From contig CM049321.1 in assembly GCA_026874595.1 (NCBI GenBank), positions 4,953,479 through 5,017,478 on the forward strand: a stretch of DNA of 64,000 bases, read 5' to 3'. How positions within the stretch are numbered: position 1 is the first letter of the stretch; every line of letters begins with the position of its first letter. Shown in pieces: positions 14,301 to 57,401 of this stretch. The stretch comes from Sipunculus nudus. Its lineage: Eukaryota; Annelida; Sipuncula; Golfingiida; Sipunculidae. Under the pieces are notes generated by a model that saw only the letters and a program-made list of their open reading frames with translations, searched no databases and had not been told where the DNA came from. The position numbers and the translations under genes were made by a program.

Positions 14301-17300
14301 GCCGGACAGCCGGACAGACAGACGGAAGGACGACGGACAAAGACCCATCGCTATAGCCCAGCATGACTGAAAGTCAGCTGAGCTAAAAATTGATCATGTA
14401 GATCAATAAAAAATCTGAATTAAAAGGGAGATTTCAAGTGTTTGATTTAGAAATGTTGTTGTACATCCCACAACCTGTAATGGAAATAGAAAACTGGATT
14501 CCAAGGAATACAAGCCTCTCGCATGTGTACATGTGTGTGTAGGGGGGGGGGGGGGTAGGGGGGTACTTACTTTGGGATGCTCCCACAACAGTGTTTGCAT
14601 TCACTTATTCTGCCCATATTCCAAGGTTCATTAACACATAAGTCAGACTGAACATTTGTGAATATTCCTTGATGATGTTGCTGAATATGGACCATTTGCT
14701 GGATCCACACCAACATCCATTTGATTGCTCCTTGGTCCATTCTCAAAATGCCTTGAAAATTAAATGGGCTTCAATTCATGACTGCACGTGTTGTGTTCAG
14801 GGTTGGCCGGTAAATGCCAGGGCGGTAAATGCCATTGGCAATTCTTGGGAAATGCTGGCATGGACAATACCCCTCCTGGCAAATAAGTGGCAATTAAATG
14901 GCAAATATAAAATAAATGCCTTATTTTCTGTGTTTTATTACTGTCACAAAGATCTACAAACTACAAAGACCCACAATATGATAACTGCTCAATACAGATA
15001 AAAGTGGGATTTATCTGCAACAGTAGACTTAGAGGACTAAGACAGTGCATTGCAAAATTATATTAATCCTGTATCATTGTGTGATAAAAATTTCGAAACA
15101 AGTTTAGCAGAAAGCACAAAATGAGCAACAATATATTTCCCTGGGCTTATATTAATTTAAATGAATATATAACTGTACCTGAAGTTATATAGTTTTATCT
15201 GTATCTACTGGTACTAGAAGGTTTCTCATTGCTTAGAAATAATCTTCATGGGTAGGCGGTGTGCATGAATTATTATTTTGGCTCTGTCATGATTGGCTGT
15301 TAGTGCTGCTTCATACTGTTCATGTGTTCAGCGATGACAATTTCTTTTGGTAGCTGGTTCCAGTCACTAGTTCATGGAATAGCAGAATGTTTAAAGGTTT
15401 CTATAATGGTACAGGTACTTTAATTATTGCCTTTGAGTATAGTCTTTGTTGGTATTTTAATGAAAGAATATAGATATTCACAGGATACTGCTGCTAGATC
15501 ATTTATAATTTTGATAAGAAGACCTCTAATCATAATTCTCTTCTCCTTTTGGTGAGATTTTTCACTCCTATTCTTGTCATCATTTAGTAACACAATGATG
15601 CATTTGCAATAGTAAATGCAAACAAATCATGACAAATATCATAATTATATTGGGTCTGATCATTGCTGTATCCCTAAACAGCAGCAGATCAAAGCTTGGA
15701 AGAGAGCTTCTGTTGATCTATGAGCATCATCAAAGACCAGATAGGTCTGTTTAGTCAGCTATCTGCTGGCTACAACTAGTACTGTCCAGTGAAGTACTCT
15801 TATGCAATTAGAACCACTGGTCATCACTTACATAAACAACAGCTGGCCCTCAAACACGTACACAAACTTTAATGAAGGCATGTATACTGGTATTTTCCTG
15901 GTGATGTTGTCGCCTGAAAAATAAATGGATGGGGATTTCTCATCCATGACATTCACCTCATAGCAGAATTTTTAGTCTCAGGGAGATTGATTGAGATGGA
16001 CCAGGTCTGATAATCCAGCACCATTCTCCTTTCTGTTTGGGCCTTCTGCCATTACACAGGAATGTGCATTCCATAGTGGTCAGCATATTCATGAATATAT
16101 GACAGACCTCTCTGATGTCATTATCTTACAAAAACTAGGGACCCATGGGTCTCGATGCTCAGCTGCTTTTGTGTATAACTTCAAAGGATAAATGTTTATG
16201 AGGTTTTCCAAAATATTGGCCCTGTGATCAGCTTGAAGCCAACCTGTCTACCCAAACTGGAGTTATCATCCACAAACTAATCTGTGAATGGATGGGCCCT
16301 GTGACCTTAACCTTATAGTTAGCAATATCTGGAAGAATGAAGGTTTGGGATGAAAAGTTTGGCTTTAAATGCATATGCATTCTTTTTAAAGAAATGAGTC
16401 CTGTGACCATTACCTTTGACCGTTGGACCCCAAAATACACACAGTTCTTACTTTAGTGATAAGTCATATATAAGTTAAGTTTGAAAACAATGTCAAACTA
16501 AACTGGAGTTATCATCTGAAAACTAATTTGTGAACAGATGCGATCTTGACCTTTGACCATGTGACATTCATTTATGCTCTCCCCATACTGGCAAGTCAGC
16601 TAAATGTGCAAAATGGAGAGTTTTGGATGAAAAGCTTGGCTTAAAATGCAGCCATGATCTTTTTTAAAAAAGTGAGTCCTGTGACCCTGACCTTTGACCT
16701 CAAGACCCCAAAAATCATATAGGTTCTTGCTTTAGCGGTAGGCCATAAATAAGTCAAGTTTGAAATCAATATGTGTCAATACAACCTAGAGTTATCATCT
16801 GGAAACAAATCTGTGTGGATGGACGGATGGACAGACAGACAGACTGGGTGATAAGTATATGGCATCCACTTGTGATCAATAAACACACCAGGTTTTGGGA
16901 CACTAGATGTAATTACAGCTTAGAGACTGACATGATTGTTGTCATTTTATAGAAAAAAAAAATTCTTTAAAATAACAAAAAAATACAGGTGGGGCCACCA
17001 CTTTTCGGGAACTGACAGAACAGGTCATGGTAATATTCAAGGCAAGATTCATGACAATCCATGCATTAATTATCAAGATATTCGTTCATGTGGATTAAAT
17101 ATATAATTTATAAGATTAAACCTCTTATAATTTATGGATAAAAACTTGAAATACATTTTGTGGAACACTTGCATTTAATGTTTATCAAAAAACAGTACTC
17201 TTAATAAGCAAGTGTATTTCAGTGTACCTTCTTGTACCAACTGGACAATTATAAAAGGAAAGAAATGGTATATCTCAGAACTCTTTTACTGCAATTGAGG

Positions 17301-18952
17301 GACACATAAGTGCTGGTCGAAAAAAGAGTGAAATTAGAAACAGTGTGCATCCCAATGGATACAGGCCTCCGCTACGGGAGCACAAGTTTAAGAAACGCTC
17401 TGCAAACACAGTGGGCAAGGTCATCCTGGCCGCGCGATGAAATCCATGAAATGAAATCACGCTTCTATTCTTTGTGTTCTGATTTAAAAAGGACCGGTTC
17501 TTGGCAAATATGCCGGGAAATAGGCATCATGTCGACCCTCTGATGTTACGCCCAGATTACTGGCGTACACATACACATTTACACATAAATGGCAAAACAA
17601 CTCCATGCTTGAGTACCAAATAATTTTTTTAAAAATATTTTGAAACAGTTTTATCATAAAAAAAAATGGTACAAGTCTAGAATTCAGGCTGCTGTTCTGG
17701 ACACGTGAAGACACCACGGATACATGTGAAACGTTGTAATAATATATCCAGTTTACTCCTTTGTAAGTTAATGGTATCCTATATCCTTCCAATGTACCTC
17801 TTACCCTGTAATAATATACAATTTATCCTTCCTTCACGCAATTTAACATACTCGTATCTGTCATGATTCCTGCCTCTTGCTTGTTAACACCACTTGGCTA
17901 TGTGCACAGGTCCTGCCTATGTCATTCACATCCGTTATCTTGCGCCCTCCAGGCATTTGTAGGCACACACATCATGGATATACTTGGAGTATTTCACAAA
18001 TAAAACAAGTGACTCCACCTTGTCCGCGCGAAGCGCGAGAAGGAGTATGGTTTAGTGGCAGGCAGTTAACAAACGGCTGAGGGTTAATTTTTTTTAAGCT
18101 TTTGCGACGTCCGGGTGCGAAGCGCCCGGACGACGCATAAGCTTGACAAAAATTAACCCTCATTTTAACAACTACGACCAATTCTGAAAAGTAGATTTAA
18201 ATATCCCCACTTGACCCTTCACACCCAACTCGTCTTGCATGGCGCAGTGGTAGAGCATAGGACTTGTTAATCCATGATTGCTGGTTCGAGACCCAGTGGA
18301 GAGCTTCACAATTGCATGTTATGTGTTCTAATAATTGCATTTCTCATTACAGGTTCGCCACTAGACGGAGACACATAAACATACGGCAGACATACGAACA
18401 AGAGACTAGAAACCATAAACATAGACACCGGAAGTTTTATTCATTGACTCAAACTCAATGGCTCAAACAGCAGCCTGAATTCTAGATGTAGACATGGATG
18501 TTAGGAAAACAAGTTAAACAAGTCTTCAGACAGTTGATGAAAATGGAATGTGTTCCATTAATGACATTATTCCATGATTTCAGTTTGATTAATATCAGTA
18601 CTCCCTGTTTAGAATACAGGCCGAATTTTTTTTCGAGCCCAGAAGATTTAACATCTTGACTTTCTTGTCCTTAAATAACAAAGTGACTCACTCAACTCGT
18701 GATCATGTCAACAAAGCTATCATGTTTATAGCGTCATACATCAGACGACGGACCGACACCAAAACATCACAAAAACTGACATCATTCCTGGACTTTTAAA
18801 AGAAACAATCTACCTTTTCACGTAAAATGGGCTTGAAATACATTTTGGCACAAAATTTGACTTACAGCAAGCAAACTGTTGGAGAATTCCGTCTGATCTG
18901 GGCTCGTTTTTAGCTCGAAAGCTATCATCGGCATACGAGGCACTGCCTCCAT
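3591..18952 (-). CDS. PTPN23: PTPN23 / HD-PTP (BRO1-domain tyrosine-phosphatase-like protein), N-terminal part, six exons
   Basis: Six exons on the minus strand (18952-18866, 10846-10772, 6839-6712, 6124-5998, 4896-4765, 3746-3591) join in phase into about 235 residues. The protein opens MEAVPRMPMI, the typical HD-PTP start, and contains the BRO1 stretches LLKRYYAQLHFLQSRFPM, VLYNIGALHSYLGAMDKR and GMKVSCTHFQCAA. The HD-PTP BRO1 domain is known to bind ESCRT-III (CHMP4) and to act in endosomal sorting of receptors; the coiled-coil, proline-rich and phosphatase regions would lie off the left edge. The sister protein Alix shares the BRO1 fold, but the start and the LGAMDKR block fit HD-PTP better. 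Introns are long (up to 8 kb) and filled with repeats. The promoter side is occupied by 6.4 kb of foldback elements beginning 27 bp before the ATG. The intron after exon 4 uses a GC donor. Identity rests on recalled family sequence, not a search. Confidence 0.9.
4765..4896 (-). CDS. PTPN23: PTPN23 exon 5
   Basis: A 132-nt, phase 0-0 exon encoding GMKVSCTHFQCAAWAYQNLR and ending in the helix FKVNLML. The acceptor is AATAG and the donor CTG|GTAAGT. This is a core BRO1 helix pair of HD-PTP; the GMKVSCTHFQCAA block is near-identical to the vertebrate protein. Confidence 0.92.
5998..6124 (-). CDS. PTPN23: PTPN23 exon 4, with a GC splice donor
   Basis: One base completes the Trp codon, followed by 42 codons encoding DDVYTGKAITHVDISFEQ, AAVLYNIGALHSYLGAMDKR and GTPE. 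The acceptor is ATATAG. The 3' boundary that keeps frame with exon 5 is GAG|GCAAGT, the consensus of a GC-AG intron (donor GC at 5997-5996). Using the nearby GT instead would add four bases and shift the frame. Confidence 0.92.
6430..6640 (+). repeat. Dispersed repeat, copy 1 (partner 46045-46260)
   Basis: Shares GCAGAA, GGTTTCAGACT, CTTCCTCTCATTTTA, ATCCTGGTGT and ACCAGGCC in order with 46045-46260. Lies in the PTPN23 intron between exons 3 and 4. Confidence 0.75.
6712..6839 (-). CDS. PTPN23: PTPN23 exon 3
   Basis: A 128-nt exon with acceptor TTTGCAG and donor ATG|GTGAGT. It encodes AAVNVSRDFMGCSLLKRYY and then AQLHFLQSRFPM, a highly conserved BRO1 stretch. It ends in phase 2; the split codon is the Trp of the FTW motif, completed by exon 4. 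Confidence 0.92.
7657..7680 (+). repeat. Poly-G tract
   Basis: 24 consecutive G. Other long G tracts are at 8796-8813, 14542-14555, 39566-39592 and 42350-42364; lengths are probably unstable and error-prone in assembly. Confidence 0.95.
8197..8347 (+). repeat. (GA)n microsatellite, interrupted
   Basis: About 150 bp of GA repeats with AAAG interruptions, in the PTPN23 intron 2. The long open frames on both strands are repeat artefacts (RERERE / SLSLSL). Confidence 0.95.
9037..9660 (+). repeat. Dispersed repeat with TCAGCTGAGCTAAAAA end, copy 1
   Basis: Direct partner of 10180-10690. Starts GTGAAAATTAAATC and ends in a GGACGGACAAAGG tract followed by ACTATAGCTCA and CAGCTGAGCTAAAAA. The same terminal block closes the repeat at 13290-14390, suggesting a common 3' end. 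Confidence 0.82.
10180..10690 (+). repeat. Dispersed repeat, copy 2 (partner 9037-9660)
   Basis: Matches copy 1 in order, with more deletions; lies just upstream of the PTPN23 exon 2 acceptor side on the opposite strand. Confidence 0.8.
10772..10846 (-). CDS. PTPN23: PTPN23 exon 2
   Basis: This is a 75-nt, phase 0-0 exon encoding YIADHYNERPDSYSKE and then a short helix ending QLRQ. The acceptor is TTTCAG and the donor CAG|GTCAGT. It matches the BRO1 segment of HD-PTP that follows the N-terminal strand (the vertebrate counterpart has NYGENPEAY here). Confidence 0.88.
10975..11165 (+). repeat. Dispersed repeat, copy 1 (partner 59443-59625)
   Basis: Shared blocks are ACACTGCAG, CAGAGCAAAGAATTGTAATCAG and a 3' TTTTAAAC-like end, same orientation as 59443-59625. 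Confidence 0.75.
11170..13285. other. PTPN23 intron 1 sequence, no gene seen
   Basis: AT-rich non-coding DNA. Contains a GACCCATGGGTC-type motif at about 11965 (also found at the end of 16134-16900) and two diverged units ending TTCTGACAAG (about 12480-12630) that look like a short tandem repeat. Confidence 0.6.
13290..14390 (+). repeat. CTTGACC-type tandem repeat with GGACGGAC tail
   Basis: About four units of 136-147 bp (TGACCTTGACCTTTGACCTC at 13612, 13748, 13883 and 14030), then a (GGAC)n-like stretch and CAGCTGAGCTAAAAA ending near 14390. Related to, but with half the period of, the 690-2110 array. Confidence 0.85.
14395..16130. other. PTPN23 intron 1 sequence, no gene seen
   Basis: Includes a poly-G tract at 14542 and a short patch (14815-14895) of repeated GGTAAATGCCA / GGCAAATAAG variants; otherwise unremarkable AT-rich DNA. 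Confidence 0.55.
16134..16900 (+). repeat. CTTGACC-type repeat beginning with a GACCCATGGGTC palindrome
   Basis: Starts ACTAGGGACCCATGGGTCTC and continues through three diverged CTTGACCTTTGACC units to a GGACAGACAGACAG stretch. An inverted copy ends at about 34009 with the same palindromic terminus. Confidence 0.82.
17092..17562 (+). repeat. Left copy of a ~480-bp inverted repeat pair (partner 27164-27650)
   Basis: Begins GTGGATTAAATATATAATTT and ends near CCCAGATTACTGGC; it matches the reverse complement of 27164-27650 over its whole length with scattered differences. It includes a GC-richer core with GGATACAGGCCTCCGCTACG. Open frames in it are conserved in both copies but resemble no known protein. 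It could be two dispersed copies or the arms of a larger foldback structure. Confidence 0.88.
18238..18310 (+). repeat. tRNA-like sequence (tRNA pseudogene or SINE head)
   Basis: A-box TGGCGCAGTGG (18240-18250) and a perfect B-box GGTTCGAGACC (18285-18295) are spaced as in a tRNA. The T-arm stem and acceptor stem do not pair properly, so a functional tRNA is unlikely. Confidence 0.6.
18866..18952 (-). CDS. PTPN23: PTPN23 exon 1 (start codon exon)
   Basis: The ATG is at 18952-18950, with A at -3 and G at +4 (strong context). It encodes 29 residues beginning MEAVPRMPMIAFELKTSP and ends in phase 0 at a perfect GTAAGT donor (18865-18860). Exon 2 continues the BRO1 alignment without a gap. Only 17 bp separate the ATG from the TTCTTCTCG target duplication (18970-18978) of a large foldback insertion, so little native 5' UTR remains next to the start. 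Confidence 0.88.
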
Positions 18953-18991
18953 CTTGCAAGGTTTGACAGTTCTTCTCGGGAGGGTATAATT

Positions 18992-21203
18992 CGGCAATAA
19001 ATAAAACTCGGAAGTCGGAAGTCGGAAGCCTTCGGAAGTCGGAAGCCGTTTTAATTTGTACTATAATGTTTAAAATAACGATCATACCAACACTTTTTCG
19101 TGTTAAAATGTAAGATATAGACCCCCTTTGCAAAACCAGGAAGTTGCACAAACGTATATTCCCATATATGAAAATTAAAGCATTTTTAATGCGTCGGAAG
19201 CCTCTCGGAAGTCATCCTGAGGTGTCAGATGATGCTCAAAATGCATAAAACTCGGAAGTCAAGACCATAGCACCAACCGACAATGACGCAGAAAAAGTCT
19301 TGCACAATTCCAGATTTTGATTAAAGTGATATTTATGTATTTGAATAAAATCATAATGTTTATAATTAAACATAATGATATATAAAATATATAAAAAAAT
19401 AAATGTTGAAATATACATTCAAATGTAATACATTATATATCATATCGTGACGTAATATTTTAATATGGAATGTTATTTTTTATAAATAAAAATGTAAAAG
19501 CATTTTAAATTTCGTAATTTTATCAAAATGGTGTAATAATGCTTTTAGAATAGAATATTATATCATATAAAAAAATTAAGTATAACTTAAACAACATTTA
19601 TTTGTATTATAATTATTTTACATATATAAGACTATTCAAATATTTGATAAAATACATAAATTTTTATATTAATGTAAAATAGTATCAAACTGTCGCATCC
19701 TTGCAGGAACTGGTAAAACCGTAAGAAAAGTCCATTCAGTTTTGTAATAATAAAACTAATTTATTTTATCCATTAGGGTGCTATATACAATATAAATGAA
19801 ACTAAATTTTATCCATGCATTAGGATGCTTTATATGGAACGCATATAACTCTCCAAGGCTTGCTGAATACTGATCACCCAACGTATCAGGAAACATTTTT
19901 AGAACATTGCACAGACAATTTGCATAAAACATTATAAAAACACTTCCAAAATATTTCGAAAATTAAAAAATATGTAAAACTACATATAACTGTGAAAGAT
20001 TAAAAAAAAGGCATGTGATGTTGCAAAAACATTGATATATCTTGATATAGTATCTTTATATTTTAATTTTAGCTTAATCAAAATAATTTATGTAGGAAGG
20101 ATATAACATTATTATATGATTCCATAGAACATTTTTTTAATTTTACACTTTAAAGCCACATTCTGTTTTGGAAACATTTTAAGAACAGCTTCATAAAATG
20201 TTTATGCTAACTAAAGATCAGGCAATAAGAACAAGGAAACGCGTGTGCCTTTAAGGTAACGTAATGAAATATTACATAGATTGTAATCAATTACAAACTA
20301 ATAGGAGGAATCGCCACCTAAAATCTTTTCTGCCATCTGTTATCCATTTTATTTGTTAGAATAACTCGCTAGGTGGAGGTGATAAATTATCACATAAATG
20401 AATGGATATATAAATACTCATATTATATACAATTTAATAATTTCATATATTAATTTATATTGACTTATATAACTTTGTCTTTCTTAATTTAGGAATATTG
20501 ATTATATTGTACTTTTATAATATATGATATTTTATCATATAATATAATTTAATATCAAATTATATCGCTGTTGAATGAATATATAATTATATCTGTTATT
20601 TATCAATTATATATATTTGTTATTTAACACATTGTGTATACATTTTAGTATACTTGTTATTATGTAATTATATTTTGCATCATGTATGTATTTGTTCAAT
20701 GAAAAAAATAGAGAATACCAAAACAAATCTGTTTTGTATTATACTGGGTTTTTTTTATTTATTATTATAGTATTTTATATTCATGTTTTACATTTCAATA
20801 TCAATTTATATATTATTTTGTTATTTATATACATTTTGATTTTATTCAAATAAATATATAAATATTACCTAAATTAATATTTGGGTTGATGCAAGACCCT
20901 TTTTGTGTCGTTGTCGGTTGGTATACTGTGGGTTGACTTCCGAGTTTTATGCATTTTGAGCATCATCTGTCACTTCAGGATGACTTCCGAGAGGCTTCCG
21001 ACGCATTAATTATGCTTTAATTTTCATATATGTTAATATATATCTTTGAAACTTTCTGGTATAAAAAAGGGTGTCTATATCTTCCGTTTTAATACAAAAA
21101 CTTGTCGATTTGTTCGTTATTTTTAAAATTATACTAAAAAATAAAACGGCTTCCGACTTCCGAAGGCTTCCGACTTCCGACTTCCGAGTTTTATTTATTG
21201 CCG
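18992..21203. mobile_element. Foldback element FB-1 (CGGAAGT-type TIRs), nested in FB-2
   Basis: Inverted arms of about 310 bp (18992-19304 and 20890-21203) start CGGCAATAAATAAAACTCGG and contain short subterminal CGGAAGT repeats. The 1.6-kb interior is very AT-rich and has no coding potential. It is flanked by TATAATT at 18985-18991 and 21204-21210, a 7-bp duplication of FB-2 sequence, and it splits the left FB-2 arm, so it is the younger insertion. Confidence 0.88.
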
Positions 21204-22251
21204 TATAATTCGCTGATCAGCGGTCTGCAGTATAAAACGCTGATCAGCGCGCTGATCAGCCACCTTTAAATGACGGCATTGATTTCAGGCAAATTATCTC
21301 CCATATAGCAACCTCCGCCTATTTTGTGATTGAATATGGCAAAAAGACACCTTTCCTATCAGTATTACGTATTTACAAACATATGCATTTATTTTTATTG
21401 AGTTCATAATTATACATGAAACGCAAGTTACCTGCCAGTGATTATTTCGCTGATCAGCGGCGCTGATCAGGAACCTTTCAATTCAAGTATTTATATTAGA
21501 CAAATTAGCCCCATATAACAACCTCCGACTATTATATGATTAAATGTGATTAAAATATACATATTCTATAAGTGTTTTATATTTACAAACAAACGAAAAC
21601 ACTTTTAATGTGTTACAAGTTTATTATACATGAAACCTTTCTACCACCTACTATTTCGCTGATCAGCAAACTGCGCAATCGCTGATCGGCAATGATTTAC
21701 GTACTTCTTGACTAAGATTCCTGTCACGAGTGATTCTCTATAATGGTTATATTGAAGGTTCTCAGTTGTTTTACTTATATCCTGTGAAACCGAGTGATTG
21801 CCAATACATCGCCCATACCAGGCTACTTCATACAACTTTCAGATCAGTGCCCCACCGACCACTCGGGGATATTAGCTAACAGTAAGGGGCGCTGCAGTAA
21901 TTTGTCAGGTGTTCACGGGCCAGATGAGATAAATAGCTGAGATATGCACCTAGTATGTATGTATAGAAAATTTGAATTTATCAAAAATGAATATGTTAAA
22001 TGTATATAACCATAATAAAAGACTGATTATCCTCTTATTTCTTATTAAGAACTGTACGTATAGCCTATAAGGATTCTTTCACTCTTCATTTATAATATAA
22101 TCGTTCCTTGAAAACTGTCACAAGTTTCTTTACATCCCTCTTATATTTCCTTTTTTTGCATTTAAAAAGTGGGTCGCCAGAATCTTTTTCAACACTGTAG
22201 TATCTAAATAATTTAATCGATTTAAACACGATGTTGATAGATTTAATCCCA

Positions 22252-22252
<1 letters not shown>

Positions 22253-22319
<67 letters not shown>
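22253..22319 (+). repeat. (TA)n(TG)n microsatellite inside FB-2
   Basis: About 34 bp of TA followed by about 32 bp of TG in the core of the foldback element. Confidence 0.95.
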
Positions 22320-22321
<2 letters not shown>

Positions 22322-23974
22322 GTAACGTCAAAGAATAACTCCACAAAAACATCATTATCGGTATTTATTTTTATATTTTTTTTTCATTTTACAACAGGTC
22401 ATTTCCATAATTGTGTAAAAAAATCCGCATATCTATTGCTTTAACATCGTTACTTCTATATTTCTCAAAAATGAAAGGAATAGGAATGCTTTCATAGTTT
22501 TGGAAAACAGCATACACTAGCAGCATAAATATAATCAGTACTAGAAAGGTTGAAGGAGTAATTACTTTTAATTACAACACTATAATAAATCATCACCGTA
22601 TTTTTTTAACTTTTAACGGTAGTGAATGTCGATGAACGGTGTTGAAACAATCAGGTAAAGATGGATGTAACATCTAAATTCTACAATGGCATTTTTATTC
22701 AGAACTTTAGCGTTATTATAGGGATCAATGTGTTAGGTATTATAAAATATTAAACTCTTAAAATTTTATTATAAAAGAAGTCTGCATGCTTCAAGTACTG
22801 ATTTTGCCAATGATTTCATTTATTTTAATTCAACACAGTTCTCCTTCTTCAGCACAGTTATATGTTTAAATAGACATCATTTCAAGAAATAAATAAAATG
22901 ACTTAGACATATATTAGAAAATGAATTTATTGCCCACATTTTTATTTACCGAGGAAGATTGCTATAAATTTCCCTTCTATTTATTGCATTATACCTTCTG
23001 TGGGTTGCAGTTTTATTTTTTTTTTTCAGGATATAAACGGAACACATTAAAATTAAAAATACGCAATTTACAAGGTTAGAATATATTTTTATAATACAAT
23101 ACATCGTACAAGTGAACCTTCCATATTTTTTTCTAAATAAATTATGCGGGACCGCGCAAGTCTGTAACAGTGTTGAAATTGATGATACACTTAGGGCATT
23201 AGTTTTAATCTCAGCTATTTCCATCACCTGGCCGGTGAAAATCTACCAACAAATTACTCAGCGCCCCTTACTGTCAGCTAATATCTCCTGTGGGGAACGG
23301 ATTTTTGTAAATTGTATGTGGTATGATGTTTTGGCAGTCATTCGGTTTTCACAGGAAATAATTAAGTAAACAACTGAGAGGTTTCTATGTTACCATTATA
23401 GAGAATCACAGATGACAGGTATCATAGTCATGAAATACGTAAGTCCTTGCCGATGAGCACTTTATCAGCGTCAAGCGATTGCGCAGTTTGCCGATCAGCG
23501 AAATAGGTGGTAGAAAGGTTTCATGTATAATAAGTAACACATTAAAAGAGTTCGTTGTTTTGAATATGAAACATTGATAGAATATATATCTTTAAATCAT
23601 ATTTAATCACACAATAGTCGGAGATTGTTATATGGGGGCTCATTTGTCTAAAATAAATGCTTGGATTGAAAGGTTCCTAATCGGCGCCGCTGATCAGCGA
23701 AATAGTCACTGGCATGTAACTTGAGTTTCATGTATAATTATGAACACAATAAAAATAAATGCATATATTTGTAAATACGTAATACTGATAGAAAAGGTGT
23801 CTTTTAATCATATTTAAACACAAAATAGGCGGAGGTTGCTGTATGGGAGATAATTTGCCTTAAATTAATGCTTTAATTGAAAGGTGGCTGAGCAGCGCGC
23901 TGATCAGCGTTTTATACTGCAGACCGCTGATCAGCGCGCTGATCAGCGAATTATACCCTCCCTTTCTTCTCGCT

Positions 23975-24594
23975 GGGTCTATCTAAAACGCGGAGAATCC
24001 GCGGAGAGATGGAGAATTCGCGGAGAATTCGTGGAGAATTTGCGGAGAGTTTTTATATGCAATGTTATTTTTAAATACACTTTAAAATCACTTAAATCTT
24101 CAACTATATTACTCCTAACATATTTGCGCACTGTTAAATGACCGAAATAATTAAAACATGTGTACATAATTAAGCATGTTATGCTTAACAATGTAAACTC
24201 ACCGCCGAGTGAATGTGTTACGCAAAATGTAACAAACGTCTGAGTCACCAGCTGACACTGACAGATCTAGAGACGAAACCGCAACACTCTTATATTAATG
24301 TTTCAACAGTTTATTGTGCAAACCATAACAAGACCATGCAGGTGTTTATAGGTGGTGAACGAAATATATAATATAATAAATAAATCATACGTTCACCTAC
24401 ATTTATTGATAGAAAAAAAACCACTATCACCATTAATAGTGTATAGGCTTAGACCAAATTTACCCGACATGCACAAATAAAAGTTGAACACAGACGTCGA
24501 CTTTATACACAAACAAAGATTGCACCTTTAAGCTAATGAATCAACTTGGCAGTAGGATTATATAAAAGAAAATTTAAATATATATATTTAATAG

Positions 24595-24654
<60 letters not shown>

Positions 24655-25424
24655 TTTTGATCACAGTTAAAGAGATATATTTTATTAGTCTGTACAAAAT
24701 ACACCACACTTCTTTCTGACCATAACAATACAGAGTACAATAATAATAAAAGAAATGAAAAATATAGCACAATGTACACATACGTACAGCCAAAGTACAA
24801 GAACTTATTTGAACAATATTCACAAAACCATTTCATTGATCAAGTTGTTTTAGTTATTTTAAAGACAAATGCACATATTAAATGAAACCACTTATTACCA
24901 CTTATATTATATATTTTAAAAAAATTTTATCATACTCAATCATATATTATATTTAGGCGTTGGTAGGCCCTATTCTACTAGTAGGAGAAAGTTTTGTTTT
25001 AGGAAGTGGTGAAAAAACTTAATGTCTGGACTGAAACAAGAAACTAATTGTTTTTGCAATTATCCCTGTTAAAAATTTTTAATTTGTTTAATTTCTTGAA
25101 TGAAACAAAAATCAAGTGCATTTGCAATTGCAAATAGTCCACAGTCTCCTGGTGCTATTCGTTGTCTCTGGTATGGCAGAAATGAAATCTTATCGGAGAA
25201 GAACTTGCTTGTCCAAACAACTGAGAGCTGAATTTTACGTGAATGTACAGATTTTTTATTATTTCGGTCATTTAACAGTGAACAAATATGTTACGAGTAA
25301 TATAGTTGGAGATTTTAAGTGATTTTAATTCGTATTTAAAAGTATCATTGCATTTAATAAGTCTCCGCAAATTCTCCGCGAATTCTCCATCTCTCCGCGG
25401 ATTCTCCGCGTTTTAGACAGACCC
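23975..25424. mobile_element. Foldback element FB-3 (GCGGAGAATT-type TIRs)
   Basis: 1450 bp with inverted arms of about 190 bp (23975-24168 and 25243-25424), ends GGGTCTRTCTAAAACGCGG, subterminal GCGGAGAATTC repeats, and an AT-rich core with a long (TA)n. A perfect 9-bp duplication CTTCTCGCT lies at 23966-23974 and 25425-25433. Arms differ by roughly a tenth, including one extra subrepeat in the left arm. No transposase; probably a non-autonomous Mutator/foldback-type element. Confidence 0.9.
24596..24652 (+). repeat. (TA)n microsatellite inside FB-3
   Basis: Uninterrupted TA repeat of about 56 bp in the FB-3 core. Confidence 0.95.
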
Positions 25425-25433
25425 CTTCTCGCT

Positions 25434-25584
25434 TACCCATTCAATGCGTTCGGGTTCACTTTGCCCACATCACATAGGGGTACTGATAGATAGATAAATG
25501 CATGAACAAGAAAAATCAAATGCATGAATGAATGATAATATGTAAAGGAAAAGAAAAGATGAATACGTCACATACTTAATAATG

Positions 25585-25628
<44 letters not shown>

Positions 25629-27160
25629 CAATAATGATAATAATCTTACATTCAATTTTAATTAGAACACTTAAAATAATTTAAAAAATATAATGATAAT
25701 TATAATATTTATTAAATATTTAAAGGGAGAGAAACATGGTTGACGTCTTGCTCGTTTTCTGAGGTTTTTCACATTTCTGGTCAAACTTCACTTACGTTGT
25801 TAAATCTTTGTTTTCTCCGAGTAGCTGAAACTTATATGACATGATGTCTGGGTGGAGATAGAGTTACGTGTTTAAGTTGTGAGGTATCACTGTAGTCTAT
25901 CCGGACATTGTAAATTCTAAAGTGTATCAAAATTAAGCGATTTGTCGCGTACAGGGCGTTTTTGTTCAAAGGTGTATTCATGATGGAAAAACCGAGAAAC
26001 ACTACTTTCATTATATGAGCGGAGATTGTAATATTAGACTGGTTCCAGGAACCATTTAATTAGTATCTTTCATGGTCACAAGATGTCACAACCGGACAAT
26101 AATAGTTTCAGAAAACTTGTCATTGTACTTTCTGCTGTTAAAAACAATATGGAGCCGCTTGATTAATGTATATTCTACAACTCTTACACCTGAGGCTAAA
26201 ACATTTCTCCCTTACAACCGCCAATACCCTCAAATAGTAACCCCCAGTGTACGCATTGTGTGTTATTAGTAATGCCATTATATATTTCCCGATAGCCTAA
26301 TGACAATCTGACTCAGTAGGCAATGATAATTGAGCTCGAAAGCCTACTAGAGTCGTTATACAAGCAAAATCGAGTAAGTCATCGCAATGGTGTCCATCAT
26401 GTTTCATTCATATCGTGGAAAAACCACCCATAATCCTAACATTATGCTGATTATTTAACACAAGAGCATGTGAACTCGCAACCTAAAATGACACCCCGTC
26501 TCTATGGTAACGAGTCATTTCCCGTTGTAGGATTTTCCCACAGATAATAGAAAACAACACAGAATTTAAGGTTTATCGTAAATTCTGTCCTTAACATTAT
26601 ACTGCCAGCCTGTTAGTTAATTGTGATAAACAGGAAGCTAGAGGGGTCGCGGCAGGCTACTGAACTTCGCCTTATGTCGATTATCCTTTAGCCCCTTAAC
26701 GAGTCTACATGACTAAACCTAGTGCTGACCAGACGTGGGCCACTCCTGCATCATTCCAGGGCACGCAGAAGAGTGGGCTAGCCTGAATATACTTTACAAA
26801 TAGGAATGGGTCAGTCCAAATACTGATAGCTGAAGGGGTAGTAGGCCTGATGTCTAACACTGTTTCGCCTCCAAGTTGCCCGAGTCCTGTAACCCGTGCG
26901 AGCCATGATTGTGTTCATGCAGTCATCAATTAAACAAAGATGTACAGGGGTTTACAAATATGCTGAGTTTATAAAGAGAAGTTTTCTCGCTAATGGTTTG
27001 TGTTATTAGAAAGTACACTAAAATGCTACCGATTGGTCTGGTTTATGTTAATTGACAGTGTACCTGTAGGCCATGGGGCGTTGTCAAAAATGATGAAAAT
27101 ATTTGCATCCTCATAGGGCCTTACAATTCGTTCCTCAGACCTTGATGAAAAGACACTCTG
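25434..27160. other. Unique sequence, probable original 5' flank of PTPN23
   Basis: If FB-2 and FB-3 are removed, this sequence joins directly to 18978 and would be the native promoter/5' UTR of PTPN23. No gene, TATA box or clear CpG island is recognised in it. Confidence 0.5.
25579..25625 (+). repeat. (AAT)n microsatellite
   Basis: About 14 units of TAA/AAT just outside FB-3. Confidence 0.95.
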
Positions 27161-27163
27161 GCA

Positions 27164-27650
27164 GGCCAGTAATCTGGGCGTAACGTCAGAGGGTACCGTC
27201 GACATGACGCCTATTTCCCGGCAAACTTGCCAAGAACCGGTCGATCCTTTTTAAATCAGAACACGAAGAATAGAAGCGTGATTTCATTTCATGGATTTCA
27301 TCGCGCGGCCCGGATGACCTTCCCCACTGTGTTCGCAGAGCGTTTCTTAAACTTGTGCTCCCGTAGCGGAGGCCTGTATCCATTGGGATGCATGCACACT
27401 GTTTCTAATTTCACTCTTTTTTCGACCAGCACTTATGTTTTTCTCAATTGCAGTAAAAGAGTTCTGAGATATACCGTTTCTTTCGTTTTATAATTGTCCA
27501 GTTGGTACAAGATGGTACACTGAAATACACTTGCTTATTAAGACTACTGTTTTTTATAAACATTAAATGCAAGTGTTCCACAAAATGTATTTCAAGTTTT
27601 TATCCGTAAATGATAAGAGGTTTAATCTTATAAATTATATATTTAATCCA
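27164..27650 (-). repeat. Right copy of the ~480-bp inverted repeat pair
   Basis: Inverted partner of 17092-17562, 9.6 kb away, lying on the far side of the FB pile-up and PTPN23 exon 1. No clear target duplication was found at the outer borders. Confidence 0.88.
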
Positions 27651-27654
27651 CGGA

Positions 27655-29040
27655 AACAGATATGTTTAGTCTTTATTTAGATTTATCATTTTTTGTCTCA
27701 TGAGTTTTCAGCTAGGTTGCTTATTTCTAAATTCCTGAAATAAAATATTGTTGAGATAAAACAGGCAAATTGGTGCATACTGTTAAACTTTTCATTCATA
27801 TTCCTTAAAGCTGGCTAGGCCTTGCTGTGAACAACACTGGTATCCTCAGTCAAGAATACTGGGAAACTTTCATAGAATTTCTATGCAATGAAAAAACTTT
27901 CATATAATTTAATTTTAAACATCTGACCCTATGTTTAAATTTTCTCGAGAAATATTAATAAATTTTACATATTATTTGTGAATCTAATGTATCCTTTCAT
28001 ATATTTAGTAGAACCATGTTATTCCTTATTTCATAATTAACAGGTTAATTTGGGACCACCACTTACAAGACAATATACAATGTACACCTAATTGGCATGC
28101 TTATCAATTTTTATAAATTATTATTTGAAAATGGATTTTTAAAAATGTTTACAGCCATTTATTTCAGTTTATAAATTAAACATGTATTATATACACTTCA
28201 GTTCCACTCCTTCCGTATTTTATAATTTGCAGAATGTCAAACGTCCCCAGTGGGTCTTTTTACATGCATATTAAAGACACATAGTTGATACACTGATAAA
28301 TTTACTAATATGTGATAAAAAGAGGCTCCCAGCTGTCTCTTTCACGTAGTCCATAAAAGTGTTTAGTCAACGACAACTATATGTAAGTTTTCAGAAATTT
28401 CAAAGAGATGATATACATAAACATTAACTGTTGCCTCGTTCATGAATATTATTAATTCCATTTATTGAGATTTTAAGCAAATATCACAATCAAGTTAGGT
28501 TGACCACCGTGACCGACAGTAGATGTGTTATATAAACCACATTAGTTGTAGTTCTTCAGGTAAAACAAATATATAGAGTATCACTGATTATTTTCCTCAA
28601 CTAAAACTGTCTGGGAAATCTTTGCTGACAGTTATATCAGCTTATGTTGTGTTCAGTCTTTTGAATCCAGCCATTTCGTGTAATAACTGGTTATAAATTT
28701 AATTGATTTCATGAAAATGACTACTAAATAACTGGTGGCCACGGGCATTACGTGAAATTACTGTAATGTGTAAGCATTTCATGTAATGACTGATTTCACT
28801 GATTTATTATAAGTTTTATGCTAAGTTTACGTTTGCAATTAACATGTGAAAATATAAGCAGAAGGGTTTTTTTTTAAGGTATAATATCTCCCTTTTATAT
28901 CTAACTCTAATAATTAAAATGCAGATATAATGAGAAAAGAACGTGCTTTATTTTTTAAAAATGAGAATATGTCTTGAACATATCTTGAGAATTCTTCTGC
29001 AGACAGCGTTTGCAATTATGAATATTTATTCAAAAACATG
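27655..29040. other. Intergenic, no feature seen
   Basis: AT-rich DNA without coding signal or recognised repeat between the inverted repeat copy and the GC-richer 5' region of the aminotransferase gene. Confidence 0.5.
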
Positions 29041-29049
29041 GGCGTACTT

Positions 29050-29609
29050 TGAAATGGCCGAAACCGCAAGTACAAGGGCTATGGGTCTCGAAGCAGTGTC
29101 GTTCACAGGATCGAGTTCGGCTCTCGAATGGTAAGGCTGGGTCTCCGCTGCTGGGACCGGTGGAGGGAATGTGGGTTGCTTCTGGCTTTGTGGCTGTAGC
29201 TTTCTAAAAGGTCACCGGCTCGGGATGGACGGTGGCGGCCTCTACGGCTGATTGGCTTGGCGTGGCTCTGCGACTGTTGGCTCGGAGAACATGCTTAAGG
29301 AGCACACAGGGCTGAGGTCTTGACCGCAGTAACCTGTAGCTGCTCGATGAGCGTATACCTCTTTTGGTTGGTTGGTTGGTTGATTCTGCAACTGCGAGCG
29401 CCACCATGTGTCTGTGATGGACAGCCTGAATCCTGTCGGAACTTCTCGGCTATAGTCGGATGTCTTCGGTTCAGGAATTCCGTCCGGGGAGAAGGGGGCT
29501 TCCCCAGCGAGCGACACGCAAACATGTTGAACCAATGTCATTGACAACGCCTAAATATTCCACTTCCCCGCCGGTGGGGGACGACAAAGTCTGTGACAGA
29601 GGGTCCACA
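29050..29609 (+). promoter_or_regulatory. GC-richer 5' region of the aminotransferase-like gene
   Basis: This 550-bp stretch is clearly richer in G, C and CpG than its AT-rich surroundings and ends at the proposed start codon. It likely holds the promoter and 5' UTR. Several open frames on both strands reflect composition. Includes a (GGTT)4 run near 29362. No TATA box is obvious. Confidence 0.4.
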
Positions 29610-29670
29610 ATGGAGCCCCGGGTCCCCCAAACGGATTTCGGCATATTGCCCTACACTTGCGTCTACCTTG
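29610..29670 (+). CDS. Aminotransferase-like gene, exon 1 (start exon)
   Basis: ATG at 29610 has A at -3 and G at +4. Twenty codons read MEPRVPQTDFGILPYTCVYL, plus one base before a perfect GTAAGT donor (29671). The single leftover base is exactly what exon 2 (two leading bases) needs. The link to exon 2 over 5.5 kb is inferred from this phase match and from the lack of another candidate. In-frame upstream ATGs at 29460 and 29535 could add up to 50 residues but sit in weaker context. Confidence 0.6.
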
Positions 29671-32600
29671 GTAAGTTGAAATTGTAAACATAATTGAGAT
29701 AATCAACATGCTATGTACAGTACATACAGTGATACACTACTGTCACTACTGTCACTACCATTCACAATACATGAATTGTGACTGTCATTTGTATCACGCC
29801 CATCTTGTCAAATTTTCTCGAAATGATCAGTATTTAAATTCAAACTAACGAATCCATTAAGGTGTGGCTCTGAAAAGGGCCAATTTTATAAACTGTGCAG
29901 TTTTGTTGTTAATGGTCATATAAAATCACATATCAAATTTTTTTATCATTTTTTAAGTTTATTATAATAGTAATACTGTAGTATATGTAATTATACAAGT
30001 ATTTACTAGTAATAACCTGTTTACTAATTATTAATACTTATTATTTTAAAAATTATTTATTAAACTTTAAACAAGATCTCTTAATAGTCATATCAGGCTG
30101 TAAAGATGTAACAATAAGTCATTTTGCAAGGTGCAAGAAGGCCAACATAATCACATAAATTCTAGAGATACGGAAAATGAATAGCTTACTTTAACTTCAA
30201 ATTCAGTTCTGCCATATTCCCTTTTTTTCAATTCATTTTCAGTTAAATTCCCTTTTGATTCAATCCTGAATGGACCCTAGGTTTGATCCAGAAGCACTTA
30301 AATTATAATTGTATACTGATATATATACTGGTAATTGACTAATTGTTTGAGCGAGTGAAGCTTAGTGTTCTGACCTGACAATCCAGGTGGCTTCCAAAAC
30401 TGGTCATCCCATAAAGCATGTTGAATTAACATGAAAATAGCTACTTCCCTTTCAAATAAATCTTTACCTGGCAAAATATTGCCTTGAAACCATTAGCTTA
30501 CTCCTGTAAATGAACAGTGGACTGGGTGCGATCACTGTTTACAACATAAACATAGCACATAGGGCAGTGTGCATCACGGAGCCATAACACATGTTAATCA
30601 GGAGTTGCCCTGACTGACTTGGCTAAAAAAAAATAATACATGTTCCCTTCTGCCTTTAACACCACGTGTTGCGGCACACAGATCTTCAGTCACATGCCCT
30701 TGTTATGGTAAACAGACACACAAGGACAGCAGCCATTTCTGCTGTGGGTTCTGTCTGGCAACTGCTGTGCGGCAGCTATAAATACCTTTCTGCCCTTGTT
30801 TCTGCCATAAGGGGAGAAATACCCTGAAAACTGTGATAAAATGAATTTATATAAAAGCTAACCAATTTATACATGATACAGCAAATACAGCAGTAATATA
30901 ACAGTAATGAAAATGAATAAGGTGTAAACTGTGACAGAATATATTAATAATTATTGGAGGGTCCAGGTATTGCCTGAAGAAGGGCTGAGAAACCCAAACT
31001 ATATAGGAATTATTATTTTGAGTCAATTCTCAGTCAATAATAAGCTAAACTGAAGCAAGGTTCCTACGCCAAAAGTCAGAGGCTCTGGTAGCATCATCAT
31101 AGTCAGCATTATGTCATGCATGAATGAGCACTTGTAACCACTGGACTTAGGAGAGCGCTACCGGAGCTAGGTTCTGTCACATCATTTCCAATACCAGTGA
31201 AACATGAATGAAGTCTTGTGTACACAAGTTAATGCATATCAGGAAACCTTAAGGGCTGTGATAATGACATTACCTGAGCCTAGGTACCTAAATGCTACCT
31301 ATGTACCACTGTGTACTACCACATATACAAAAAAACTCCTGCTCAGGAACCCACGAGGCAGTACAGGCTCTAGAACTGAAACAGCATTCGTAATCCCAGT
31401 CAATTGGAAATCATTCATAACTGACAACTGAAAATTTTAGTCAAGATAGCCCTGTGACTACACCGCTTGAGTCACTACAGTCTTTATAAATCTCTTCACC
31501 ATAAATTGGGAAAATTTGGTTTTATGAAATGTGCTGTTTTCAGCTGGCAATTTAAACAAGTTTATAAAGGACCCACTGAAACCCAGGCCCAACTTGAGAC
31601 ACCCGGGCCTAATTAAACACTATAATAAAATTAACCTTACAAAAACAGAAATGATCCTGGAATTGCTTTAAACAGAAAGGCTGGGTCTGTCCCTTCAAAA
31701 TCAATTAAAAATTTTGATGAATATTCGTATATTTAGTGCTAAATTTCAACTCTTAATAAGGGTCAAATAACCTAAATTTTTGGCCGTCTGAAAACTTGAG
31801 CCCAGTAAAAACGGCCTTATCATACATGTTTTATGCGACTTTAACACTTTCTCCAATGTATTATATAGAATAGATAGTTCTCTATAACCATAGATACCAA
31901 AAAGGTTACTAAAATTTGGTAAATCACAGCAATTCTAAACTATAACATGTATATATATTTATATGTATATATGGTTCAACAGACGGTCATTTTTCACGCA
32001 ATACCTCCCCCCCCCCCCCCCCTGGCCCAAAGCAAAATGCATTTACACGTTATATCATATAATATTGTCACATTTTACAACTTGTTACGTTAGATTAGAC
32101 AGTTCTCTAGTGTACTCAAGTTTAAAATGTAATATATTCCAAATTACCGTACCAGCTTTTTTACAGTTTTCTGGATGGTCTCATAAAAGGCTAATTAACT
32201 CACAGCCTGACCGGGCCCAACTCATCACACGTTATAAATGGTAAAAGCTTGGACGGTGCAATAAATTTTCTTAATGAACAAGTTTCAGCTGATTATATTT
32301 TAATTGTCGAAGATATTATCAGTTTTTTTTCTTATAGTAACATATATAAACAAGGACAACTATGATTTTCAACGCATGTCTCAGTTGAGGATGGCACAGA
32401 CCAATACATAAACCCGTCCTGAAAATAAAGAGAGAATCTATAATAATGTATGAGAGAATATACAAATACATCATCTTTGGTAGTTTGCGTGCAATCAATT
32501 GCCAAGATGATATGGCACTCCCAACAAATCACTCAATCAATCAAGCCCAAGTTGCACTCTGTCAGCATACAGGCATGCATGGGTGCACACATTTATAGCC

Positions 32601-35600
32601 CTCATGTGACATTCATACCCTTCACTGTTGCACAGCACAAGTCTTTACATGGTCAAGCACAACTTACGGCAGAGTTAATATTTTTGTTCAGAAGAAAATA
32701 TCATATTCGATTTGAACATGTTATATAAAAAAGTAACAGTAAAGAAGCATGATTATACAAATATGATACTGGAAACCATATATGTATACATAACACATGA
32801 CATTTTATATTAAAGTTTGTCTGTTTAGAACAAATAAGACTCACTCTCATTTTCAGTTTATACTGAACACTGATGCAGGACCTGTAAAATTTCTGTTCAC
32901 ATTTTCTGTTCCATTAAACAATTCCTATAACACATCAGCCAAACCACAAGGGCAGGATATGGTTACTTTAACTGATAACGATTTTAACCTTAGGCATTGA
33001 ATTGTTATACTTTTGTTTCAGTTGTTTTCGGAATGCCGTAACTTCTCCCTTCTCATAACACTGTTTCAGCTTGTTTAATATTATAACAATGTCGTCCTCA
33101 TACCTAGCGTGAATAGGCACTTAAGCTGTTGCCCAATATATTGTGTTGGCTACAGCAAACAATGTAGCACTATCATAGAATCGTTTCTTGACTTAGGGAA
33201 AAAACAGGAAATAACTGGAGGAGGTAGATCAATTAATTAATTTCCCTGGGCACGACGCTTTATGAGATACTGCTCCCACTTATAGGGGCCCAATCATCTA
33301 TCTAACCTCTATAAACTAAAGGTATTCCCTTGGAGCTCTTATAAAAAATAGACCAGTAAAAGTGAATATCACCATACACAGGCTGCTTGTTTTTGTTCTG
33401 TCGATTTTTGGGTAATGAGGTCAAAGGTAAAGGTCACAGGACCCACATATAGAAGATTGTGGATGCATTTAAGCCAACACTTTTCATCCCAATTCTTCCA
33501 TCTTGCACATATAGCTGACCTGCAAATAGGGGAAGAACCTGATTGATTTTAGGGTCATAAGGTCAAGGTCACATGGGCCATCTGTCCACATATTTAATAT
33601 ACTGGTGATATCTCCAATTCGGATTGAATTATGGATTTCAAACTTGACTTATGACCTACCAATTATGTAAGAACCCTCTTGATTTTGGGGTCATGAGGTC
33701 AAAGGTCAAGATCACAGTATCCATTTCCTTAAAAAGATTGTGGATGCATTTTAAGCCAAACTTTTTTTCCCAAACTTTCCTTCTCTTCATGGCCCACCTG
33801 TCATTAGGGGACGGTTCCTTTTGTTTTTTTTTAAGTGACTAGGTCTAAGTCAAGGTCAATGGGCCCATCCATAAACAAGTTAGTTTATGGATGAAAACAC
33901 TAGTTTGGGTAGACAGGTTGGCTTCAAACTGATCATAGGACCCATATTTGAAAAAAACCTACCTTATAGACAAATTCAGTTGAGCGGGGAGACTCATGGG
34001 TCTCTAGTTATATTTTTACTTAAAAAAAAATTAAAAAAATGAAAATATATACATGTATATTCAAATTTTCAAGGGCGTTTCATGTCAAAGCCAATCAAAC
34101 ACACACTTCCCATAATTTTGGTCTGCTGAAAACATCAGAACTTCAGAAGCATTTACATTTTTCAGTTTCTATGTTAGAATGCAAAGTTTTGCAAATGGCT
34201 TTTTGTACCATCTTTACACAGCGCTTTACCTATAGGCCTACTACCTATATTATAAGCGCTGTTTGTTTTGATCTCGTATCCTGAATCTCTACACCAGAGG
34301 GGAGCACTTTATTTTAGTCCAATCAGATGAGACCCTGTGCTGGAAGACAAAACGGTTTACCAGCCAAGCGAGGAATATACAGAGCTAATGTAATGATTTT
34401 GAGTGACAGCTCATCGCCCCAGCAACCATTTGAACAGGCCACAGGCTCAGAGAGTATGGCCCCCATGTGGTTTCTGGGTGGAGCCTGATGCCTGTCGAGT
34501 GTTTGTTGACTTGCATTTGGTTGGCTGCTGGTCAAATCAGCAGTTTTTTCAGCAGACAGGCCAGCTGGTGTTTAAGTGCATCATAAACAGTCAAAGCAGA
34601 CAGCAGGAAAATCAGTAGCTTCTTTAGAAGCATGAGATGTCTGCTGCCCCGGGAGTGTAGGCTTTTTGCAGCTTGTGACCTTTCAAGTTCACACCTATTA
34701 AGTCAGCCACCTTTGGTTATATGTTTTTTTTTATCATAGGGACATGTACTGTAGTTGCTAACAGTATCTATATACAACCTTATACATCAGTACCAGAGGC
34801 ATTAGAAGTACTGTTTAGGAGGAATTACTGACAGTTCATTAATATTAACGTAAAGAAAACCAGAAATCACATTAATCCTACAGATAAGGCAGGTAAATAG
34901 CTGGTTTTGAATTTGCATTTTTGCTTTGACAGTTTCATGGCATCCACCAGGAGTGTATGCTTTCATTCCCTTTTTTGTGGAATATTCACAAATGTGCAGT
35001 CACCTAGCCCAATGCAACATTGGAATATGGTCTGAATAGGTGAATGCAAACATTGCATGGTTGTGTAGTACTCTCCCCCTCCCCCATTAAGGACCCCACA
35101 CATGGTGGAGGCCTGCATTCTTGACCATGAATACTTTTAGTTTTATTTACTTTCTGTTTTTCAGATGCAGATTTCAAACATCTGGTCCAGGGAGCAAAGT
35201 GGTGTGTCTCCGGGAATCTTGATCGAGCGAAACTATTAGACGGTCTGAGAGAACTGTTTACAACAAAAGAAAACCCAAATTGGGTCCTACCATGTTTGGC
35301 AGTCAGGACTGCTCTTGACCTTTTCCTCAGGATCAAGTGCTACCCACCGGGGTCAGAGGTCATCATGTCAGCGATAAACATTCCAGACATGGTACGGGTC
35401 ATTAAACATCATCAACTCAAGGTCGTACCTGTGGATGTAAACTTAGAAACCATGGCACCAAAGGTTGAAAGGCTTGACAGCCTTGTTAACAAGAAAACAG
35501 TAGCAATATTAGTTGCACATATTTTTGGAAAATGGTTTGATATGCAGCCTGTGATAGACTTTGCAAAACGACACAAGCTTGATGTGATTGAGGACTGTGC

Positions 35601-37737: not shown

Positions 37738-37739
37738 TG

Positions 37740-39697: not shown

Positions 39698-39728
<31 letters not shown>

Positions 39729-40120
39729 TGATAATGTTTTCTCATCTTGTCATTGTTACATGAATGAAAAATACAAAGCTAAAAAAAATGCGGCAGCATA
39801 TCACATCATGCCATTTCTTGTGATCACTGACATAAGAGAAAGGTCATTTATGTTTACAAAAGTATTTTAGATATATATGTGCAAACAATTTAACTTAAAA
39901 CCAATTTAAACATTAAAATAATTATTGGCAGATCTCTGTTTTCAACTGAATTTGTGAAAGGAATTTTTATGTAGATCCTAAATATATATGTTCTCCAGTG
40001 ATTAGCCCTGTATTAAACAAGACAGGCATGAATGCTTTTGACCAATGTTTTTCCAATATATTATAGAACTGCAAGCTTATTTATTTGAGATGACTATATA
40101 TTGTTCAGTATTGCACAATT
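37740..40120. other. Downstream of the aminotransferase gene, no gene seen
   Basis: Probable 3' UTR then intergenic AT-rich DNA, with a long G tract (39566-39592) and a TG/TA microsatellite (39690-39726). Confidence 0.5.
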
Positions 40121-53424: not shown

Positions 53425-53599
53425 TGTTGTGATCTGTATGAACTCATTTCTATGCAGTCATTGTAGCTTTTTGTTTCTTATGCATGTGTAGTAGTTGTAG
53501 TTCTTTGTAGGTCATATGTTCAGTTTTCTGATTATTAAAGCCTACACTAGGGTTCAAGAGTGAATTTGAGTTATCCTTGCTATCTTCTCAATCACCACA
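53425..53599 (+). repeat. 5' LTR of the Gypsy element
   Basis: About 175 bp, TGTTGTG...CACCACA. It differs from the 3' LTR by two substitutions and one short indel in a GTAG/TTTC-rich patch (about 53488-53505). Confidence 0.9.
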
Positions 53600-57215: not shown

Positions 57216-57397
57216 TGTTGTGATCTGTATGAACTCATTTCTATGCAGTCATTGTAGCTTTTTGTTTCTTATGCATGTGTAGAAGTAGTAGTTTTTGTTT
57301 CTTTCTTTGTAGGTCATATGTTCAGTTTTCTGATGATTAAAGCCTACGCTAGGGTTCAAGAGTGAATTTGAGTTATCCTTGCTATCTTCTCAATCAC

Positions 57398-57401
<4 letters not shown>
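57216..57401 (+). repeat. 3' LTR of the Gypsy element
   Basis: About 186 bp, starting TGTTGTGATCTG right after the polypurine tract and running into a (CA)n(TA)n tract at 57401-57430. The exact 3' end is uncertain by a few bases because of that repeat. Confidence 0.9.

Follow-up and report, generated by a model that had tools for sequence, protein, structure and literature searches.

The DNA analysed here (the window) is a 64,000-nucleotide stretch of the sipunculan annelid Sipunculus nudus (assembly GCA_026874595.1, contig CM049321.1, referred to as C16, positions 4953479-5017478; the genome comprises 1.4265 Gb in 153 contigs). It contains the start of a gene, PTPN23, in front of which three elements with long terminal inverted repeats (TIRs), FB-1, FB-2 and FB-3, have piled up. 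Together they occupy 18978-25424, so that about 6.4 kb of inserted DNA stands ahead of the PTPN23 ATG. Coordinates are those of the window, and the target duplications and elements carry no strand assignment.

18866-18952, minus strand: first coding exon of PTPN23, beginning MEAVPRMPMIAFELK, with the ATG at 18952; the donor end is inferred from sequence
18969-18977: left 9-bp target duplication of FB-2, GTTCTTCTC
18978-23962: FB-2, a long-TIR element split by FB-1; arms of about 750 bp with CGCTGATCAGCG motifs; ends taken from genomic copies
18984-18992: left 9-bp target duplication of FB-1, GTATAATTC, inside the FB-2 TIR
18993-21202: FB-1, a long-TIR element nested in FB-2; arms of about 410 bp, 83% alike
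21203-21211: right 9-bp target duplication of FB-1, GTATAATTC, matching the left copy at 9/9 positions
23963-23971: right 9-bp target duplication of FB-2, TTTCTTCTC, identical to the left copy at 8/9 positions
23966-23974: left 9-bp target duplication of FB-3, CTTCTCGCT, overlapping the right FB-2 duplication
23975-25424: FB-3, a long-TIR element; arms of about 190 bp, 86% alike, with 11-bp GGAGAATTCGC subrepeats
25425-25433: right 9-bp target duplication of FB-3, CTTCTCGCT, matching the left copy at 9/9 positions

The gene behind the pile is, judging by its predicted exons, PTPN23. The first exon (29 aa), searched alone, gave no match; consecutive parts of the BRO1 profile are matched, in order, by five further exons at descending coordinates on the minus strand (E values 0.007, 4.5e-8, 2.7e-10, 1.9e-8 and 2.2e-12, with two of the five passing the Pfam cut-off as fragments). 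When joined by hand, the exons match PTPN23 with an E value of 5.6e-78, versus about 1e-18 for ALIX/PDCD6IP. The exons that match BRO1 appear intact, and PTPN23 is presumably still transcribed; as the sequence-only reading of this DNA proposed, its transcripts may begin inside an element, carry the insert in a long 5' UTR or join an upstream leader exon by splicing across it. Two smaller features were noted: a tRNA-like head of a short interspersed element in intron 1 (18238-18320; box A and box B recognised by eye, no tRNA called by ARAGORN), and an 85-bp palindrome resembling a miniature inverted-repeat transposable element (18078-18162, arms 88% complementary). On the PTPN23 strand, just upstream of and partly within the FB-3 duplication, the string GGGTAAGC resembles a splice donor, which is offered as a remark and not as evidence.

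Boundaries and target duplications

The ends of the three elements were fixed from copies elsewhere in the genome. Most genomic FB-2 copies stop at the equivalent of 23962 and start with GGGAGGG, which places FB-2 at 18978-23962 and its edge 26 bp from the PTPN23 ATG. Most FB-3 matches start at 23975, and FB-1 matches mostly start at 18992 or 18993, the latter being the position that yields 9-bp duplications; a 7-bp duplication, also considered for FB-1, was ruled out by 13 genomic copies. The left end of FB-1 is 15 bp inward from that of FB-2. All three elements have the long, internally repetitive inverted arms that characterise Foldback elements: the FB-1 arms carry repeats of a 17-bp GGAAGTC-type unit, and the FB-2 arms, about 82% alike overall and up to 92% alike in stretches, contain CGCTGATCAGCG palindromes, as found by reading.

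A sequence-only reading of this DNA had proposed that two unrelated long-TIR families used almost the same target, with FB-1 nested; the strings it named were found at their positions, and both the ends and the duplications established here agree with that picture. Its finer measurements needed adjusting. The exact TTCTTCTCG duplication it assigned to FB-2 is the true GTTCTTCTC/TTTCTTCTC pair slid by one base. Since the FB-2 edge is thereby shifted by one base, the FB-2 and FB-3 duplications do overlap, as proposed, by 6 bp (23966-23971) and not 7, and the near-shared target is not 11 bp but 12 bp, GTTCTTCTCGCT, starting 17 bases upstream of the PTPN23 ATG; FB-2 itself lies 26 bp upstream of the start and not 27.

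Such duplications are a general property of the families. Among copies with both ends determined, including those in the window, a 9-bp duplication with at most one mismatch flanks 14/14 FB-1, 18/20 FB-2 and 26/28 FB-3 copies (58/62 in total). Far ends were retrieved for 13 FB-1 and 20 FB-2 copies only, and FB-3 copies L022 and L029 (one end not found) and FB-2 copy L042 (far end not found) were left out before counting. The misfits are L046 (8 bp matching at a one-base offset) and L049 (a doubtful far end) in FB-2, and L034 (two mismatches) and L038 (displaced by a base) in FB-3. Because 9-bp duplications flank nearly all copies in all three families, those in the window are not due to chance. 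In addition, two FB-3 copies lie in dispersed repeats whose uninserted relatives carry the 9-mer once (L015 compared with L038, and L017 compared with window position 50664), these being relatives of the same repeat at different loci.

These boundaries bear on the possibility that the pile was made by the assembly. Palindromic repeats are difficult to assemble, but each junction in the pile consists of a family terminus beside a 9-bp duplication, and a misjoin would not create such junctions; an artefact is thus extremely unlikely. The idea that FB-2 and FB-3 arrived in one event, either together or with the second lodging in the first's duplication during the same transposition, draws on the 6-bp overlap of their duplications. 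The 9-bp duplications of the two elements are nevertheless distinct and out of register with each other, and no donor pair is apparent, since the genome contains no other FB-2/FB-3 pair with exact ends. We regard a single event as very improbable.

As for the relative ages, FB-1 is younger than FB-2 because it is nested in it; whichever of FB-2 and FB-3 came first, the resulting sequence would be the same. The closest copies of FB-1 match it at 100% over 509 bp, and the best genomic matches of FB-2 and FB-3 are 96% and 97% identical, respectively.

A further inverted pair brackets exon 1 and the pile: 17090-17564 (plus strand) and 27165-27651 (minus strand) are inverted copies of a sequence of about 480 bp, 94% alike, with no Rfam match. 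A reading of this pair as the TIRs of a giant element around exon 1 was rejected because no matching duplication was seen, by reading, outside its ends.

Target preference

Pooling 58 sites of the three families, with both strands counted against a background of 37% G+C, revealed no strong target motif. What is present is a weak preference common to the families for G or C at position -2, two bases beyond the duplication (61%, p = 2e-7), and at the duplication edge (positions 1 and 9; 59%, p = 3e-6). The excess at -2 is found in every family (79, 58 and 54%), and G at position 1 or C at position 9 is seen in 48/116 cases (p = 1e-8), significantly so in FB-1 and FB-3. The centre of the duplication is A/T-rich (24% G+C, p = 0.04).

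The target consensus of maize Mu elements, SW::SWNNNNNWS::WS (S being G or C, and W being A or T), also comes with 9-bp duplications (PMC2774946), and its S positions are the positions enriched for G/C in the FB families (p = 2e-7 and 3e-6). The 58 sites fit this consensus better than random sequence (p = 0.0013), with family means of 5.1 for FB-1, 4.3 for FB-2 and 4.5 for FB-3 versus 4.0 for random 13-mers. At the pile, the FB-2 site scores 7/8, the FB-1 site 6 and the FB-3 site 4 (random mean 4.0). In a target matrix built without the window's FB-1, FB-2 and FB-3, the FB-2 site ranks at the 96th percentile of random 9-mers, the median real site at the 77th and the FB-3 site at the 52nd. The FB-2 site at PTPN23 thus fits the shared preference, and the FB-3 site does not.

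Classification and known relatives

Mutator-like elements (MULEs) are recognised by target duplications of 8-11 bp and by long TIRs; the FB families have 9-bp duplications in 58/62 copies and arms of about 190, 410 and 750 bp. The Mutator type is indicated by the lengths of the duplications and of the TIRs and by the target positions rich in G/C (PMC6446971, PMC2774946). The FB elements are therefore described here as probable Mutator-type foldbacks, their membership being unproven because no transposase was found. An autonomous FB-2 was sought among inverted end pairs, of which there are 33, with ends up to 12 kb apart, in the first 100 of 192 places, and the middle of a 6.36-kb copy was read for coding capacity (see below). 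Long FB-2 end pairs lie at C3:20882389-20891913, C8:61492467-61501786 and C6:54626603-54638633. Scans of viral contigs for FB-2 and FB-1 ends gave no match, and no description of the three families was met in the literature, which was searched by text and not by sequence and covered few subscription papers.

Several known systems invite comparison. Maize Mutator/Mu and MULEs share long TIRs, 9-bp duplications and G or C at -2 and +1 with the FB elements (PMC2774946, PMC6446971), and they insert near the 5' ends of genes (PMC2774946; PMC6446971). They differ in that the FB elements are putative members in which no transposase was found, show no enrichment at the W positions and have only a suggestive gene-start bias. 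The Tm1 Mutator/Foldback elements of root-knot nematodes have foldback-like TIRs made of repeated short motifs and occur in nested insertions, with duplications of 8-10 bp, mostly 9; they differ from the FB elements in their asymmetric terminal motifs, in having members that encode a transposase, and in that their authors report no clear target consensus (PMC3169594). Among the systems compared, Tm1 is the closest structural kin. Rehavkus likewise makes 9-bp duplications and has TIRs of 26-400 bp with a minisatellite near one TIR, but it is reported from insects and annelids with a PHD-finger transposase (PMC6446971), and no transposase was found for the FB elements. Drosophila Galileo and Foldback also have long, internally repetitive TIRs; Galileo is placed in the P-element superfamily (PMC3573991).

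Stacking at the PTPN23 start

The sequence-only reading had taken the pile for an insertion hot spot. In its strict form, this would mean that open, unmethylated promoter-proximal DNA at PTPN23 draws independent families to the same dozen bases. Three insertions at one spot are consistent with the idea, as is the rarity of such meetings: uniform insertion predicts 0.002-0.004 facing FB-2/FB-3 pairs within 30 bp genome-wide, an expectation based on counted FB-2 ends and on 952 unscored first-look candidates for FB-3. The exact 16-bp FB-2 terminus occurs 192 times in the genome (95+97; reversed control 1+1), and FB-2 faces FB-3 within 30 bp only once in 1.43 Gb, at PTPN23, in a search for exact ends that would miss copies with altered ones. 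FB-2 and FB-3 therefore do not habitually stack. Against a hot spot, moreover, the pair was singled out only after it had been noticed, and many other family pairs were possible; FB-1 went into FB-2 and not into the gene; and the FB-3 site scores about as a random 9-mer would (percentile 0.52).

Some clustering within a family is possible: for 2/29 FB-3 copies, a further FB-3 end lies less than 600 bp away (L027 at 130 bp and L028 at 584 bp), which speaks against an outright absence of clustering. In L027 (1300-1520), the second FB-3 end faces the FB-3 copy across the 130 bp. Separately, FB-3 copies L034 and L037 lie about 68 kb apart on contig C17 with left flanks 96% identical over 859 bp, probably reflecting a segmental duplication.

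The ratio of observed to expected CpG (CpG o/e) served as a proxy for chromatin. In 500-bp bins across 16-40 kb, it is 0.6-1.6 over 17.0-27.5 kb, apart from a single bin of 0.32; the flanking bins mostly give 0.1-0.6, except at 28.5-30.0 and 32.0-32.5 kb. The pile thus lies inside a CpG-undepleted stretch beside depleted bins, as the hot-spot idea would have it, and is CpG-rich itself; lack of CpG depletion around the PTPN23 start (about 17000-27500) is as expected of an unmethylated promoter region. But 14/53 one-kilobase bins of the window outside this stretch reach a CpG o/e of 0.74 or more, so that the stretch at PTPN23 is not unique, and enrichment around 64 copies is not significant. CpG-rich DNA as a general target is accordingly unsupported (64 copies versus 20 random stretches, p = 0.18; FB-3 copies alone versus random kilobases, p = 0.06). 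A true local hot spot is, taken together, unlikely. What can be kept of the earlier proposal is a mild preference for gene starts, which is plausible; a strong motif is absent, the FB-3 site looks random and the pair is unique.

Proximity to gene starts

Gene starts were sought by reading, by eye, open reading frames (ORFs) that point away from the element within the 700 bp of flank next to it, window copies being left out (56 flanks of 29 FB-3 copies, 48 of 29 FB-2 copies and 20 of 13 FB-1 copies). Beside FB-3 ends, the ATG of WDR92 lies at base 131 (PDB match with E = 7e-24; no Pfam or NCBIfam match), that of cystathionine gamma-lyase (CTH) at base 388 (PDB E = 2e-16; Pfam and NCBIfam below cut-offs) and that of a THAP protein, which may itself be transposon-derived, at base 269 (Pfam E = 2e-12). 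A gene start at base 135 from an FB-2 copy is one we take to be ATPSCKMT (nothing in Pfam; NCBIfam only E = 0.075). The ATG of TMA7 lies at base 60 from an FB-3 end (Pfam E = 2e-7; no PDB match); it was spotted while the flank was being read for another reason, outside the ORF list and without a matched control. In that copy (L028, 2357-3203), the FB-3 end stands 59 bp before the TMA7 ATG.

As controls, FB-3 flanks read inward gave gene starts in 0/56 (minimum ORF 44 aa, versus 36 aa for the outward list), and 20 random kilobases read on both strands gave none, although they did contain a long repetitive ORF (L119) and an exon with weak likeness to a lectin (L122, Pfam E = 0.02, under the cut-off). 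Expected counts are set by a gene number of 25,000-40,000. For FB-2 and FB-3 together, 3 ORF-listed host starts compare with 0.54-0.87 expected (P = 0.02-0.06), and for all three families, 3 compare with 0.66-1.06 (P = 0.03-0.09). FB-3 by itself has 2 versus 0.31-0.50 (P = 0.04-0.09), or 3 with the THAP gene (P = 0.004-0.015). Within 150 bp, FB-2 and FB-3 have 2 starts versus 0.13-0.21 expected (P = 0.008-0.02), or 3 when TMA7, found another way, is included (P = 0.0004-0.0014). At the level of the families, a mild bias towards gene starts is plausible, not proven.

A bolder version would have the FB families target gene starts like maize Mu, often between promoter and ATG, with host genes surviving by splicing the insert out of the 5' leader or by starting transcription within it; PTPN23, TMA7, WDR92 and others would thus carry palindromes of 0.9 to 6.4 kb before their ATGs. 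This we consider a doubtful, though conceivable, extension of the data.

Favoured explanation

The explanation that we favour, and think fairly probable, is that of three separate cut-and-paste insertions of non-autonomous foldbacks that are Mutator-type or Mutator-mobilised, with a weak preference for G/C at the target edges and possibly a mild bias towards gene starts; the meeting at PTPN23 would be a rare coincidence within that bias. FB-2 and FB-3 would each have entered a single 12-bp target shortly before the PTPN23 ATG, the later of the two using one copy of the earlier element's duplication, and FB-1 would have inserted afterwards into the outer end of FB-2. A Mutator-like transposase presumably moved all three elements.

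Several observations weigh against this explanation. No transposase was seen in FB-1, FB-2 or FB-3, and 1 kb from the middle of one 6.36-kb FB-2 copy contains no ORF longer than 59 aa. With regard to the target, FB-2 by itself lacks the G1/C9 excess (10/36, p = 0.19), the 58 sites show no enrichment at the W positions of the Mu consensus, and G/C tends to be favoured at further positions (+2/+8, 47%, p = 0.035; -4, 52%, p = 0.001). The gene-start statistics are borderline, built on small numbers found by eye, and the FB-1 flanks (20, from 13 copies) gave no gene start. Finally, the median CpG o/e is 0.67 around the 64 copies versus 0.49 in the 20 random kilobases, the difference that did not reach significance.

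Other features of the window

ARAGORN and Rfam, at gathering scores, found nothing over the window. Tandem arrays are present at 760-2097 (287-bp units) and 40289-42291 (336-bp units). ORFs at 53678-56900 resemble, by eye, the gag-pol of Ty3/gypsy elements, and lie between two direct repeats (53425-53599 and 57216-57401) that are about 186 bp long and 92% alike.

Implications

The local pile on its own implies no new mechanism. If the gene-start bias is true, these families would offer a natural animal test of gene function with long palindromes between promoter and ATG, and the PTPN23 locus would preserve a layered record of insertions at a single promoter.

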